From Defluviitaleaceae bacterium (GTDB lineage Bacteria > Bacillota > Clostridia > Lachnospirales > WRAX01), in NCBI GenBank assembly GCA_009780415.1, contig WRAC01000007.1, positions 1-64,000 of the forward strand: a stretch of 64,000 nucleotides of DNA. Direction: 5' to 3'. The position numbers and the translations under genes are program-made. The notes beneath the pieces are model-generated. The model saw nothing but the letters and a program-made list of their open reading frames with translations. It made no database searches and had not been told where the DNA came from. Shown here piece by piece: positions 20,998-26,481 of this stretch. How positions within the stretch are numbered: position 1 is the stretch's first letter; each line of letters starts with the position of its first letter.

Positions 20998-21585
20998 TTA
21001 TAATACATAAAACTCAACGGTTATGGTTCCGCTTTCGTTCCCCACACGTATAACAACCGGGAAATCATACGGGTTCTCAAACTTAAAATCCAGCTTACCC
21101 CTGTGCGAGGTCGTCGCGTCGCGCCCTTCCTCGATATAGGTTATGTCCAGCGAATGCGAATGCCGCTCAACAATCTCCATACCCGCCATTTCCGCCGCGT
21201 TATACAGCGTTGTGCTTACCTGGCATATCCCGCCCCCATAACCCTTGGTTTTCTCGCGGTTCAAGAAAACCGTGGCCTGCTTGTAGCCGTTTGACCTCGA
21301 CGTCGAGCCAACCGTGTCATTAAATGAGAACGTCTCGCCCGGACGCACAATGACTCCGTCCACAGCCTCGGACGCAAGGCGGATGTTGTGGGAACGGCTC
21401 TTGTTATTCTCGTTGTATTCTGTCGAGAAAGCCGAAATGTGGCTGCCCGACGACTTTGAAAAATCCTTTTCGTTGGCCTGCACCTCAACCGTGCCAATGG
21501 GCTGCGCCGCGTTTCCGCCCTCCCCCGCCGCGCACCCGGATAAGAGCAAAACCGGTATTATCAGCAATACAAAACATTTTTTCAT
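20998..21585 (-). CDS. vanW: VanW family lipoprotein
   Basis: A 195-residue protein with a lipoprotein signal peptide (LLIIPVLLLSGCAAG; lipobox Cys about 18), so it is probably anchored on the outer face of the membrane. The VanW domain is recognisable by GETFSFNDTVGSTSR, the GYGGGICQVSTTLYNAA signature and ERHSHSLDITY. VanW accompanies vanG- and vanB-type loci; its biochemical role is not established. It follows the VanT-like gene on the same strand but is separated by 210 bp holding a MITE-like element, so it may or may not still be in the operon. Stand-alone VanW proteins also occur outside van loci. Confidence 0.85.
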   Translation of the reverse strand: MKKCFVLLIIPVLLLSGCAAGEGGNAAQPIGTVEVQANEKDFSKSSGSHISAFSTEYNENNKSRSHNIRLASEAVDGVIVRPGETFSFNDTVGSTSRSNGYKQATVFLNREKTKGYGGGICQVSTTLYNAAEMAGMEIVERHSHSLDITYIEEGRDATTSHRGKLDFKFENPYDFPVVIRVGNESGTITVEFYVL

Positions 21586-21610
21586 ATAGGCACCTCACCA
21601 TAATAATTGA

Positions 21611-21776
21611 TTAGGGACTGTAAGTAAATAAGTTCCCTAAATTTAACGCAGGATTTTTGTCAAAATGCTAGGAAGCTTTGACCGCGTGTGCCCTAGGGCA
21701 CAGAAGGGAGAAGCTGACGACGCAGTTTGGCAAAAAGACAAGTTAAATAGGGAAGTTATTTACGCACAGTCCCTAA
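21611..21776. mobile_element. MITE-like long inverted-repeat element
   Basis: A 166-bp nearly self-complementary element. The ends TTAGGGACTGT and ACAGTCCCTAA are perfect complements. The match continues inward (GTAAATAA, TTCCCTA, TTTAAC) with few mismatches, and the centre is the 16-bp perfect palindrome TGTGCCCTAGGGCACA (21687-21702), within 1 bp of the element's midpoint. It has no transposase gene. The terminal TTA/TAA would fit a TA target duplication, but it is also part of the palindrome, so the target site is not proven. It lies between vanT-like and vanW. Confidence 0.75.
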
Positions 21777-21795
21777 GGGTATTTTGCGCAGAAAA

Positions 21796-22776
21796 TCAAT
21801 ATAAATGCATTTTAACCTGTAACTTCGCTATCAAAACCGAAAACACGCACGAAAGCAGGCATACGGCGAAATAATGAATTAGATTATTAGTTACCAAAAG
21901 GCCGGTAAGCCCGGTAACCCGCGCCGCGCCGCGCACGGCTATAATAACAAGCGGATGCAGGATATAAATCCACAGCGAAACCGTACGCAGAACCGGCCTC
22001 GCTTTGCCGTTCCGCGTAAGCAAAAGGCAAAACAGGAAGAAAACGCACGGGATAAGCATCGCGTACATGCTGTCGTGGCGTTGCAAATCGAAACGGCGCA
22101 AGAGCGCGCCCTCCGCCAGCATAAGCAGCGCGGACGCGGCAAACCCGGCAGCGCTTAACCCAACACCGGGCCGCTTTGCCATTTTCGCCAAAAACGCCCC
22201 CATGGCAAGGAACACGGGCGCATAGAAAACCCCGTTGCGCGTATAGGATGACACCCTAAACAAAGCATCATAGGCCGCGCCAAAAAACGGAGCATTTTCT
22301 ATAACGCCAAAATAACTGTCCCCAAACAAGCCGAAAACATACAACGCAAGCGATATGCCCAGGACAACGCGCAGCGTGAGCTTGCGTCCTAAAACGCAAA
22401 GTAACAGTACACCGATTATAGACGCGGGCAGATACCACAGATGATAGAAGGTCCCGTCAAATATAAGGTTCCTGGCTAAATTGACGGCAATATTCCCCTC
22501 CGAATAATGCCCGGCGTAAATACTGACAGGCAAGTACAGAACAGTCGCCCCTAAATACAGCAGCCCCGTCTTTTTCACCGCTTTCATCGGCGACGACAGA
22601 AAAAACCCCGTAGCCATCAGGAAAAACGGCACCGCTATCCGCGCGAAGACATGGATTACATAAAAATTCAAGTCACCGCTTATCCCGGACAAGGGATACG
22701 TATGTATGCCGGCAACCAGCAGCGCGGCAACCACCCTGAAACAGTCAATTGCGCCGTATTCCCCCTCAGGCTTCAT
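21796..22776 (-). CDS. vanT: VanT-like membrane domain without racemase domain
   Basis: A 326-residue polytopic membrane protein of the acyltransferase-3 fold that matches the N-terminal half of VanT: IDCFRVVAALLVAGIHTYP, FDGTFYHLWYLPASIIG, FGLFGDSYFG, YTRNGVFYAPVFLAMGA and QRHDSMYAMLIPC. Full VanT proteins are about 700 residues, with a C-terminal PLP-dependent alanine/serine racemase that makes D-Ser. Here translation stops just after the last membrane helix (LIAKLQVKMHLY) and no racemase sequence follows. The membrane half is thought to take up L-Ser. One base separates it from vanXY. A MITE-like element lies 19 bp past the stop. Loss of function for D-Ser synthesis, or use of a racemase elsewhere, are both possible. 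Confidence 0.82.
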   Translation of the reverse strand: MKPEGEYGAIDCFRVVAALLVAGIHTYPLSGISGDLNFYVIHVFARIAVPFFLMATGFFLSSPMKAVKKTGLLYLGATVLYLPVSIYAGHYSEGNIAVNLARNLIFDGTFYHLWYLPASIIGVLLLCVLGRKLTLRVVLGISLALYVFGLFGDSYFGVIENAPFFGAAYDALFRVSSYTRNGVFYAPVFLAMGAFLAKMAKRPGVGLSAAGFAASALLMLAEGALLRRFDLQRHDSMYAMLIPCVFFLFCLLLTRNGKARPVLRTVSLWIYILHPLVIIAVRGAARVTGLTGLLVTNNLIHYFAVCLLSCVFSVLIAKLQVKMHLY

Positions 22777-22777
22777 T

Positions 22778-23530
22778 TCAGCCCACCCATTTAGTAATAA
22801 TATACCCGTTCATATTATCCCCCGACACCGAAAACGGCACGTCGCTCTCCGTCTCAAACACCGTCTGCTCACTTCCCGCCGCAAGATAAGAGATACTGAC
22901 GGTGGAACCGTCGAAATCAAATTTAAACGGCTTTTCCCCATACGGAAATTCCTTCATCAACAAATGATATTCCTCAAGGGTAACGCTCATTTCATGCATT
23001 ATCTTCGCGTGGGGCGCGCCAACGTAACGGAAATGCCAAGGCTCGTGCGCAATGCCCGTTATTTTTTCCTTGCCCTCGGGATACCGTTCGATAAACCCGG
23101 CAACGGTGGCCTTCTCCCGGAAAGCCCCGCAATCCCCCGTGTACGGGAAATACGGCCTTATATCGTCTATATCCCGCTGTTTCAAGGCAAGGTCAACCGC
23201 AAGCCCCGTCTGGTGCTCGCTGTGATCCGGCAGCGCCACGTATTTCGCGGTAAATTCAAGGCCGTTGTCCGTCAGCGAATTTTCGTACAGCTTCGTCTGC
23301 TTTTCCTTGGAACGGTAGCCGCTTGTGGCGATTATCTTCTCCCCAAGATTCATATCCCTCATCAGCTTCTTTAAAACATTTGCCGCGCTCTTTTCAATCA
23401 GCACCTTGCCGTTATCGCCGACAGGCATCAGCCTATTCCCGCAATGCTCCGCGTATACCGGGCAATCCCTGTTCACAAGGATCAAGCTGCCGTTGTGGAC
23501 GTCGTTTTTCGATAAGGAAACCGTTATCAT
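22778..23530 (-). CDS. vanXY: D,D-dipeptidase/D,D-carboxypeptidase VanXY
   Basis: A 250-residue zinc peptidase of the VanY/VanX (M15) family, the normal size of VanXY proteins, with no signal peptide, so cytoplasmic. Metal and catalytic motifs are present: SEHQTGLAVDL (His and Asp zinc ligands) and GIAHEPWHFRYVG (catalytic Glu, third ligand His). The enzyme removes D-Ala-D-Ala and the terminal D-Ala of UDP-MurNAc-pentapeptide, leaving precursors ending in D-Ser. It overlaps the ligase stop by 4 bp (ATGA type), indicating coupled translation. The order ligase-vanXY-vanT is the same as in vanG, vanC and vanE clusters. Confidence 0.9.
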   Translation of the reverse strand: MITVSLSKNDVHNGSLILVNRDCPVYAEHCGNRLMPVGDNGKVLIEKSAANVLKKLMRDMNLGEKIIATSGYRSKEKQTKLYENSLTDNGLEFTAKYVALPDHSEHQTGLAVDLALKQRDIDDIRPYFPYTGDCGAFREKATVAGFIERYPEGKEKITGIAHEPWHFRYVGAPHAKIMHEMSVTLEEYHLLMKEFPYGEKPFKFDFDGSTVSISYLAAGSEQTVFETESDVPFSVSGDNMNGYIITKWVG

Positions 23531-24576
23531 GCGCCCACCGCCAGTTCTATCACCCGGTCCAGCACCTGCTCAAAGCTCATGCCGATGGCTTTCAGCATAT
23601 TCGGCAGGCGGCTATGTAAGGTAAACCCGGGGATCGTGTTCGCCTCGCTGAAGTAAATCTCGCCGGACTTCGTCAAAAACATATCCACCCGCGCAAAGCC
23701 CGCGCAATCCAGCGCTTTGTAGACAACCTTCGCCGTATCCTTGATTTCCCCGGCCTTTTGCGGTGTTATACGCGCCGGCACATGTATGGACGACGTTTCA
23801 AGCGTGTACTTCTCCTTGTAATCAAAAAACCCGCCGGACAGCTCAATCTCATCCAGCTGCCCGATAACCAGTTCATCCTTGCCAAGCACCGAACATCCAA
23901 TCTCAATACCGTCGATACATTCCTCAACAATGGCCCTGCTGTCGTATTCAAAGGCCAGCCTGAAAGCCCCGGGCAATTCGTTTTTATTTAACACCTTAGT
24001 AATGCCGAAGGACGACCCCGCCCTGACGGGCTTCACAAACAACGGATATCCCAGAGCGCCGGCCCGCTCCTCCGCCAAAACCTTATCATCGTTTTCCTCC
24101 GCCACAAAAGATTTCGGAATCCTGACACCCGCAACCCCCGCCAGCTTACGCGCCCTGTCCTTGTCCAGGCAAACCGCGGAGGAAAACGTGCCGCAGCCCA
24201 CAACGGGTATGCCCGCAAGCTCCAGCAGCCCCTGAACCGTCCCGTCCTCGCCGTATTTTCCGTGCAGCACGGGCATAGCCGCGTCAAGCCTTACCTCCCG
24301 TACCCCATCAGCCGAAAACTCCAGCAAACCGCGCGTTTCGCGGCTGGGCGATATAACAGCCCTGGTGCAGTCGCCGGGATTGCACCATGTATCATCCTTA
24401 ATTTTACCGGCATCGCCCGTAAACCTGAACCATTCGCCCATTTCTGATATACCTATCAAAACGGGCGTATACTTCCCCGTATCAAGATGCGTTATAACGG
24501 CATACGCGGATTGCAGGGAAACGCAATATTCCGGCGAACACCCGCCAAACAGCACGGCTATTTTTAACTTACTCAC
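23527..24576 (-). CDS. vanG: D-alanine--D-serine ligase, VanG type
   Basis: ATP-grasp ligase of 349 residues, the usual VanG length. Motifs: LKIAVLFGGCSPEYCVSLQS, PVLHGKYGEDGTVQGLLELA, FVKPVRAGSSFGITKV and SEANTIPGFT (Mg/ATP-binding end). The omega-loop region reads FFDYKEKYTL, and EKYTL is characteristic of D-Ala-D-Ser ligases (VanC/E/G) rather than D-Ala-D-Lac enzymes. It would make D-Ala-D-Ser, lowering vancomycin affinity of peptidoglycan precursors. The start is GTG 24576, with GGAAGGAG 8 nt upstream; the track's GTG 24585 overlaps that site. It is the first structural gene of the resistance operon, 92 bp after vanS. Confidence 0.92.
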   Translation of the reverse strand: MSKLKIAVLFGGCSPEYCVSLQSAYAVITHLDTGKYTPVLIGISEMGEWFRFTGDAGKIKDDTWCNPGDCTRAVISPSRETRGLLEFSADGVREVRLDAAMPVLHGKYGEDGTVQGLLELAGIPVVGCGTFSSAVCLDKDRARKLAGVAGVRIPKSFVAEENDDKVLAEERAGALGYPLFVKPVRAGSSFGITKVLNKNELPGAFRLAFEYDSRAIVEECIDGIEIGCSVLGKDELVIGQLDEIELSGGFFDYKEKYTLETSSIHVPARITPQKAGEIKDTAKVVYKALDCAGFARVDMFLTKSGEIYFSEANTIPGFTLHSRLPNMLKAIGMSFEQVLDRVIELAVGA

Positions 24577-24585
24577 ACTACCCAC

Positions 24586-24668: not shown

Positions 24669-25796
24669 TTAAAAGCATGGCAGCTCTACCGTAAATATTA
24701 TATACCCTCCATTGCTGTCCGCCCGTATATTCCCCCCATGCGCCGCGACAATCTCCTTCGCAATCGCAAGCCCCAGGCCCGCTCCGCCCGTATCGGTGGA
24801 ACGCGCGGAATCCAGCCTGTAAAATTTATCAAAAATGGACGAAAGGTTCTCCGCCGGCACGTTCCCGGCGTTTTTAAACACAATTGCGACCATATCGCCC
24901 GACACCGCGGCCGATATATCAATAACGCTGTTATCCGCGCTGTACGCCACGGCGTTTTTTAATATATTCTTAAAAACCCGCGCCAGTTTGTCCGGGTCGC
25001 CGCCAACCGTCAAATCCTCCGGCGCGCTGAGCTTTATCTGTTTCCCCTTTAACGCGAGCAGGGGATGAAACTCCTCCGTCATCTGCGCCAGCATATAATA
25101 CAAATCGATATTTTCCTTAGACAACGTTATGGATTGCAAATTATACCGCGTAATGTCAAAAAACTCGTCCACCAGCCCCTCAAGCAAACTGGCCTTTTCC
25201 AGCGTGATGCCGATATACTTGGCCTTTTGTTCAGGCGGCATGTCCGGCGCCTCGTCCAGAAGGCTCAAATACCCGATAACCGAGGTAAGCGGCGTCTTAA
25301 TATCGTGGGCAAGGAACATAACCACGTCGTTCTTGCGCGCTTCCGCCAATTTCGCGTCTTGCTCGCGCTTCTCAAGCTGGTGTTTTATGGTTTTAATCTT
25401 GCTCTCCATCGAAGCCATTTCATAGGACAGCTTAATCTCGCCGCCATTGTCCTTAACAAGCGCGTCCAAGCCGTCGCTTATCTCATGGAAATACTTGGCG
25501 AACTGCGACAAAAGCGAACCGGATAAAACAACAAAAAAACCCGCCACGCACGCAAACGTTAGAAGATCAATATTACGGCGGATATTACTCCAATAAAACC
25601 TTTGCGCGTAATCGAAAGACATATTAAAAAATCTCTGCATAACCGACACGATAATATCAGCCAGGTTGTTATTTCTGGCAATCACGCGCAGTAAAACAAC
25701 CGTAATCAGCGCGATACCGGTAATCAGCGCGATCCTCCAGTATATCTTCCGCTTAAAGGCCGTATAATCCTGCTTTTGCCCCCGCCTATTTCTCAA
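24669..25796 (-). CDS. vanS: Sensor histidine kinase VanS
   Basis: A 375-residue membrane kinase with two transmembrane helices (IALITGIALITVVLLRVIA near residue 15 and FACVAGFFVVLSGSLL near 80) around a short extracytoplasmic loop, as in VanS. HisKA has FLAHDIKTPLTSVIGYLSLL (His about 165), and HATPase_c has ILKNAVAYS, then GGAGLGLAIAKEIV. It probably senses glycopeptide or cell-wall stress and phosphorylates VanR. The gene begins with TTG 25796 inside the last codons of vanR (11-bp overlap), with no clear ribosome binding site of its own, so it should be translated by coupling. Confidence 0.88.
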   Translation of the reverse strand: MRNRRGQKQDYTAFKRKIYWRIALITGIALITVVLLRVIARNNNLADIIVSVMQRFFNMSFDYAQRFYWSNIRRNIDLLTFACVAGFFVVLSGSLLSQFAKYFHEISDGLDALVKDNGGEIKLSYEMASMESKIKTIKHQLEKREQDAKLAEARKNDVVMFLAHDIKTPLTSVIGYLSLLDEAPDMPPEQKAKYIGITLEKASLLEGLVDEFFDITRYNLQSITLSKENIDLYYMLAQMTEEFHPLLALKGKQIKLSAPEDLTVGGDPDKLARVFKNILKNAVAYSADNSVIDISAAVSGDMVAIVFKNAGNVPAENLSSIFDKFYRLDSARSTDTGGAGLGLAIAKEIVAAHGGNIRADSNGGYIIFTVELPCF

Positions 25797-26481
25797 TTTT
25801 ATAGCCGACCCCCCACACCGTCTTTATATAACGCGGATTATCCGGCGTATCCCCCATTTTCTCGCGCAGATGCCTGATATGCACGGTTATCGTGTTGTTG
25901 CTCTTCGTAAAATACTCGTCGCCCCAAATCTTGTGGAACAGCTTTTCGGCGCTGACAACCGTCCCCTTATGCTCGCACAGTATCCGCAGTATCGAAAACT
26001 CCGTCGGCGTAAGGGACAGCGGCTTCTCGTTCAGCAAAACCTCCCGCGTGTTCACGTTTATGACAAGACCGGAATGCACAATCACGCCGCTGTCACCCGG
26101 CGCTCCCCCGCTGTATTTCTTGTAACGGCGAAGCTGGGCCTTGACCCGCGCCACCAATTCCAGCGGGCGGAACGGCTTTGTAATATAGTCGTCCGCGCCC
26201 AGCGTAAGCCCGGTAATCTTATCCGTCTCCGCGTCCTTGGCGGTCAGCATTATCACCGGATACGTATGCTTCTCGCGTATTTTCTGGCAGATGGCAAGGC
26301 CTGTGGAATCGGGCAGCATAATGTCCAGAACCGCAAGGTCAAATTCCTCCCTGACGATACGCTCCAACGCCTCATGCGCGGTATAATATTTAAAAACGGT
26401 GTAGTTTTCGTTCTGTAAATACAACTCAACCAAGTCCGCAATCTCCCGCTCATCCTCAACTATCAGTATCCTTTCCGAAAT
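25786..26481 (-). CDS. vanR: Response regulator VanR (apparent ATT start)
   Basis: OmpR-family response regulator, 231 residues when started at ATT 26481. The receiver has ILIVEDERE, acceptor Asp in LAVLDIMLPD and Lys in DYITKPFRP. The winged-helix domain ends in RYIKTVWGVGYKIEK. The track begins at TTG 26433, which would delete the first strand and acidic pocket. Upstream in frame there is no ATG, GTG or TTG before a TGA six codons above the ATT, yet the codons give the classic N-terminus SERILIVEDERE. GGGAGG lies 8 nt before ATT 26481, so ATT is the best start; a sequencing error is the alternative. The start overlaps the MocR gene by 26 bp. Confidence 0.85.
   Translation of the reverse strand: MSERILIVEDEREIADLVELYLQNENYTVFKYYTAHEALERIVREEFDLAVLDIMLPDSTGLAICQKIREKHTYPVIMLTAKDAETDKITGLTLGADDYITKPFRPLELVARVKAQLRRYKKYSGGAPGDSGVIVHSGLVINVNTREVLLNEKPLSLTPTEFSILRILCEHKGTVVSAEKLFHKIWGDEYFTKSNNTITVHIRHLREKMGDTPDNPRYIKTVWGVGYKIEK

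Follow-up and report, generated by a model that had tools for sequence, protein, structure and literature searches.

A vanG-type operon with a VanT membrane domain and no VanT-type racemase in a Defluviitaleaceae genome

What becomes of a vanG-type operon when the gene standing in the place of vanT ends just where the serine racemase should begin? In the vanC, vanE, vanG and vanN clusters, VanT is a full-length membrane-bound serine racemase, located after vanXY. In a Defluviitaleaceae bacterium the same place is occupied by the same membrane domain, named VanTm hereafter, while the racemase half, some 370 residues in those proteins, is absent from the gene and from the genome. The stretch of DNA analysed (the window, 64,000 nucleotides) is contig C7:1-64000 of a 2.53-Mb MAG (G000), made of 85 contigs, with an estimated completeness of 100% and a contamination of 1%. 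The locus is known from this single MAG, and the present account is one of sequence analysis.

The operon and its short vanT

The genes are ordered vanR-vanS-vanG-vanXY-vanTm, all on the minus strand (Table 1). The overlap of vanG and vanXY is 4 bp and the end of vanXY is 1 bp away from the start of vanTm, so that VanTm is part of an ordinary tight operon. The ligase exceeds the curated cut-off of its type; VanXY and VanRS are recognised in the same operon, with scores below the type-specific cut-offs. Missing from what defines a vanG-type operon is the serine racemase, be it VanT or the pair VanTm and VanTr. The best PDB match of the ligase is 4fu0 (VanG, E 1.6e-127). It keeps D245, F254 and R326, aligned with D243, F252 and R324 of that protein, which we take to be the residues that determine the use of D-Ser. 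All this points to an inducible operon of the vanG type (vanRS-vanG-vanXY-vanT), with putative synthesis of D-Ala-D-Ser precursors and putatively lowered susceptibility to vancomycin. The VanW-domain lipoprotein, at most a putative member of the operon, is found 210 bp past VanTm, downstream of a palindromic element.

Table 1. Features of the locus in the window, and proteins of the genome that match PF01168
Feature	Position or contig	Strand	Remarks
VanW-domain lipoprotein	20998..21585	-	195 aa; PF04294 166 bits; vanW-gen 76 bits, below cut-off 365
Palindromic, TA-flanked, MITE-like element	21611..21776	.	166 bp; fills the gap where the racemase would stand
VanTm	21796..22776	-	326 aa; membrane (AT3/TmAT) half of VanT, racemase lacking; R14-X10-H25 present
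VanXY D,D-dipeptidase/carboxypeptidase	22778..23530	-	250 aa; NF000149 228 bits
VanG-type D-Ala:D-Ser ligase	23527..24585	-	352 aa; NF000091 525.5 bits, cut-off 495
VanS sensor kinase	24669..25796	-	NF033091 381 bits
VanR response regulator	25786..26433	-	NF000401 412 bits; NF033117 348 bits
Alr	C44		the genome's single alanine racemase; PF01168 match
BhcC-like aldolase with D-Ser-dehydratase-type domain	C45		PF01168 match
Ornithine-racemase-like (Orr-like) protein	C50		PF01168 match
YggS-like protein	C7		PF01168 match; putative label, read from a 237-aa frame
Short PF01168 match	C64		

VanTm is encoded by a complete reading frame, from ATG to TGA. It covers positions 4-329 of NF033132 (vanT-CELN, 697 positions; 238.5 bits), that is, the membrane domain of the VanT of vanC/E/G/N clusters, as well as nearly the full length of NF000033 (the VanT-L membrane subunit, 329 positions) and, end to end, Pfam Acyl_transf_3 (PF01757; 99 bits for a cut-off of 31). 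It is a VanT-type membrane domain, and its frame ends at the domain boundary, where the racemase would start, with no PLP racemase domain in it. An earlier note on this DNA, which had read the gene as VanT without its racemase half, is borne out by these matches; only its lower edge, placed at 21777, has to be corrected, being 19 bp past the stop codon at 21796. Nor had it found racemase remnants before vanW, and rightly so: 166 of the 210 bp of that gap (21586-21795) belong to the palindromic element, with no remnant of a racemase and no room for one. There is no frameshift: no racemase coding sequence follows VanTm in any frame, which rules out a racemase concealed in the gap or read in a different frame.

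The palindromic repeat

The element that fills the gap starts 20 bp after the VanTm stop. Its inverted ends of 29 bp are 90% complementary, with TA on both sides. The core is present at about eight other sites of the genome with other arms, TA-flanked in most of the copies read; identity between the other copies and the present element stays at or below about 80%, over 45-90 bp. The repeat family (window:21611-21776; L121-L128) is about 160 bp long, palindromic and mostly TA-flanked, with a common core, GCGTGTGCCC...GGCACAGAAGG...GACGACGCAG, and terminal arms that differ by genome site; the 64-kb window contains a single copy.

A false join of the assembly at the repeat is unlikely: the stop codon of VanTm precedes the repeat, and the resemblance to other copies does not exceed about 80%. 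As the only cause of the missing half, the MITE-like repeat has to be rejected: its insertion alone would not remove some 1.1 kb; a deletion would have been needed.

Search of the genome for a racemase

The earlier note had left room for a stand-alone racemase elsewhere. Profile scans of the assembled genome speak against this: those with PF01168, NF033132, TIGR01121, PF00291 and PF01177 retrieve nothing VanT-like or labelled serine racemase, and no protein has a VanT-type score. Five proteins match PF01168 (Table 1). Among them Alr deserves attention as a possible relocated VanT racemase. Against NF033131, the NCBI model for the VanT catalytic subunit (cut-off 460), it scores 348 bits, below the cut-off, while three van-linked racemases of relatives score 484, 530 and 553 bits and four full-length ordinary alanine racemases 357-400 bits. 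A tree built from 111 racemases unites all 78 van-linked sequences in a single group (SH-aLRT 95) and places Alr among alanine racemases. The TITN(E/D) motif has its Asn in 78/78 van-linked racemases, where Alr has Tyr (TVNYE); Alr agrees with VanT at none of eight discriminating positions. This Asn/Tyr site is reportedly named as a Ser/Ala switch in the VanT crystal-structure paper (mBio 2015). Score, tree placement and signature residue together rule out Alr as the missing half of VanT.

Other routes to D-Ser were considered. The genome has no D-amino-acid transaminase (TIGR01121). The fold-II and Asp/Glu-type candidates scanned are cysteine synthases, the D-cysteate lyase CuyA, OrtB, a diaminopropionate lyase, a TrpB-like enzyme and the cysteate racemase CuyB, and an Asp/Glu match on contig C5, located after the housekeeping Ddl, is likely to be glutamate racemase. 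CuyB lies near the D-cysteate sulfo-lyase CuyA (G000:C12:48676-51447; L192, L199), the two making a cysteate degradation locus in this gut clostridium.

The locus among its relatives

The 80 nearest VanTm loci were collected from 84,980 species genomes. A VanG ligase is in view at 72 of them, and at 71 of these 72 the racemase is fused or adjacent to VanTm, the remaining one (L068) being cut by a contig end; at two loci (L072 and L095) the racemase gene precedes VanTm. Relatives do have the racemase at this position, then, either fused or as a neighbour. They do not all display a short form with a separate racemase, a pattern that would have spoken against the earlier note. A census of the order, in which VanTm occurs in 31 of 392 genomes, gives a similar picture: wherever VanTm adjoins VanG or VanXY in other loci, the racemase is next to it (24/24). 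Within the family, VanTm is found in 1/16 genomes, that of the window, and in 0/15 others. No other locus examined combines VanG, VanXY and VanTm with the absence of a VanT racemase from the whole genome, and the papers retrieved describe no such operon.

The nearest relatives of VanTm are 51-58% identical to it. In the tree it groups, with moderate support, with four MAG sequences (L039-L042), presumably from termite guts, as read from the isolate names. For the ligase, the sister sequence is that of L041 (SH-aLRT 97), and since the VanT of this nearest ligase relative is full length and fused, the short VanT is derived, the racemase having been lost here. A recent plasmid transfer of the locus was also considered and rejected, there being no near match in plasmids.

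That the two halves may be encoded apart is already known from the vanL system, represented by the models NF000033 and NF033133, where VanTm-L and VanTr-L have a gene each (PMC11597547). The vanL membrane subunit is a stand-alone protein of the same length as VanTm, but its cluster includes the racemase gene, whereas in the present case a separate racemase gene is nowhere in the genome. What is new is a VanTm whose genome lacks a VanT racemase altogether.

The presumed termite-gut genomes G096, G097 and G098 (L039, L040, L042) show another arrangement. Like that of the window, their VanTm, of the same subclade, is an orphan away from the racemase; unlike it, it is also away from VanG, and G097 and G098 do have a VanT racemase, which is bound to VanG. 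In G097, VanG overlaps a free VanTr, with VanTm on a different contig; in G098, VanG and VanTr make one reading frame, with VanTm elsewhere in the genome. The window's ligase falls in a different subclade from the ligases and racemases of G097 and G098, so that the separation of racemase from membrane domain has taken place more than once. At the first of these loci (L153:3579-5772; G097:C44) the overlap is 38 bp, with neither VanXY nor VanTm beside; at the second (L154:1-1653; G098:C64; also L134, L139) the fusion comprises at least 551 aa, the contig start cutting it.

Further arrangements were observed in passing. Several Bacillota have VanT-type membrane domains as orphans (L150, L185, L186, L099, L039), the flanks read containing neither ligase nor racemase; that of L150 adjoins a two-component system. 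In G095 (L151:711-2659; C188) a Ddl/VanG-superfamily ligase (242 bits to VanG) is directly followed by a distant (32%) VanTm-like AT3 protein, and the contig ends without a racemase. In G001, of the same family, a lone VanW-VanG fusion of 550 aa (L157:6907-8559) comes with no VanT, VanXY or VanTm, and its ligase has L and N at F254 and Y260 (window numbering).

Nature of the membrane half

One paper describes the role of the VanT membrane domain as unknown and cites an older proposal of an L-serine transporter (PMC9558356); recent work notes the fold of AT3 acyltransferases in this domain (PMC12423673). It has been placed in the TmAT superfamily, where its function has not been considered so far (PMC12423673). 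In evolved Clostridioides difficile, vanT was mutated repeatedly, and reintroduction of the mutations did not recreate resistance (PMC11326576).

The AlphaFold2 model of VanTm has a pLDDT of 90 and a pTM of 0.89. Its leading fold matches in the PDB are mostly human HGSNAT, with a probability of up to 0.84, and are weak (TM 0.37-0.45, E about 0.2), while amino-acid carriers stay below a probability of 0.1; a search of PDB sequences with VanTm gave no match. The R-X10-H motif, absolutely conserved in AT3 proteins (PMC9833829), is made here of R14 and H25, the latter invariant in the comparison with relatives. With this motif and a full PF01757 match, VanTm belongs with the AT3/TmAT acyltransferases, which have the HGSNAT fold (PMC12423673, PMC9833829); the RXXR motif of their TMH3 is not seen in VanTm, which has lysines instead. 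VanTm is a complete stand-alone AT3-domain protein, with a putative acyl transfer activity. The earlier idea that transport and racemisation had been split is half right: the separation of membrane domain and racemase is real in relatives, but a transporter is just one proposal of the literature and the fold is probably that of AT3/TmAT proteins (PMC12423673).

Loss, decay or function

Conserved columns, computed from relatives, are violated at 0/61 positions in VanTm, 1/58 in VanXY and 4/98 in VanG (medians over all members 1, 0 and 1, respectively). Because these three proteins keep their conserved residues, simple decay, which the earlier note had also envisaged, is not favoured for the remaining genes, although such retention may equally reflect a recent loss. 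A supply of D-Ser is argued for because stripping D-Ala-D-Ala by VanXY, with no D-Ser-containing replacement, should be costly.

To a scenario in which VanT lost its racemase domain, the AT3 domain being kept as a stand-alone protein and D-Ser coming from outside or from a side activity of Alr, we give about an even chance. A vanG-type operon (vanRS-vanG-vanXY-vanT) would have lost the racemase half of VanT, a mobile palindromic repeat possibly sitting at the break point. It would still make D-Ala-D-Ser ends, with D-Ser taken up in the gut or obtained as a by-product of Alr, its one housekeeping alanine racemase. The AT3 domain would work, in serine handling or in acyl transfer at the envelope, with no racemase attached or encoded. 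A step further, we put forward tentatively that the membrane half has a role of its own in D-Ser-type glycopeptide resistance, through one or the other of these activities, distinct enough from racemisation for the racemase to have been dropped and the membrane half kept under VanRS control.

An early stage of decay is rather unlikely. The repeat would have mediated a recent deletion of the racemase, leaving a non-working operon whose other genes are too young to have degraded: a repeat of mobile type does lie just past the VanTm stop, no other member of the family has VanTm, and G001 retains just its VanW-VanG fusion, with altered specificity residues. Yet ligase and dipeptidase are intact, as are membrane domain and regulators, the violations are near zero in the three proteins tested, and VanXY was retained when it would be harmful without D-Ser. 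It is quite improbable that assembly or binning left out a VanT-type racemase of the organism, which would then have split VanTm and VanTr in the manner of vanL. The MAG is in 85 contigs, and two of the split systems of relatives have VanTm and racemase on different contigs; however, completeness is estimated to be full, and in every split van cluster seen the racemase adjoins VanG or VanTm, both neighbourhoods being assembled here without it. Finally, it is very improbable that the ligase has given up D-Ser (to become, say, a second ligase of the D-Ala-D-Ala type under VanRS), making a racemase unneeded: the VanG-type ligase of G001, with F254 changed to L, Y260 to N and no VanT, speaks for it, but the window's ligase is above the VanG D-Ser cut-off with its three residues kept, and the adjoining VanXY would destroy D-Ala-D-Ala.

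Meaning for the VanT family

An operon that keeps the membrane domain without a racemase, taken together with relatives in which the racemase has moved onto the ligase, tells us that the halves of VanT are separable. For annotation, equating 'vanT' with serine racemase would be wrong here. For experiment, the operon is a direct system for testing the membrane half of VanT alone. If that half indeed has its own role, the locus would amount to a separation-of-function mutant, made by nature, that isolates VanT's unexplained AT3 domain.
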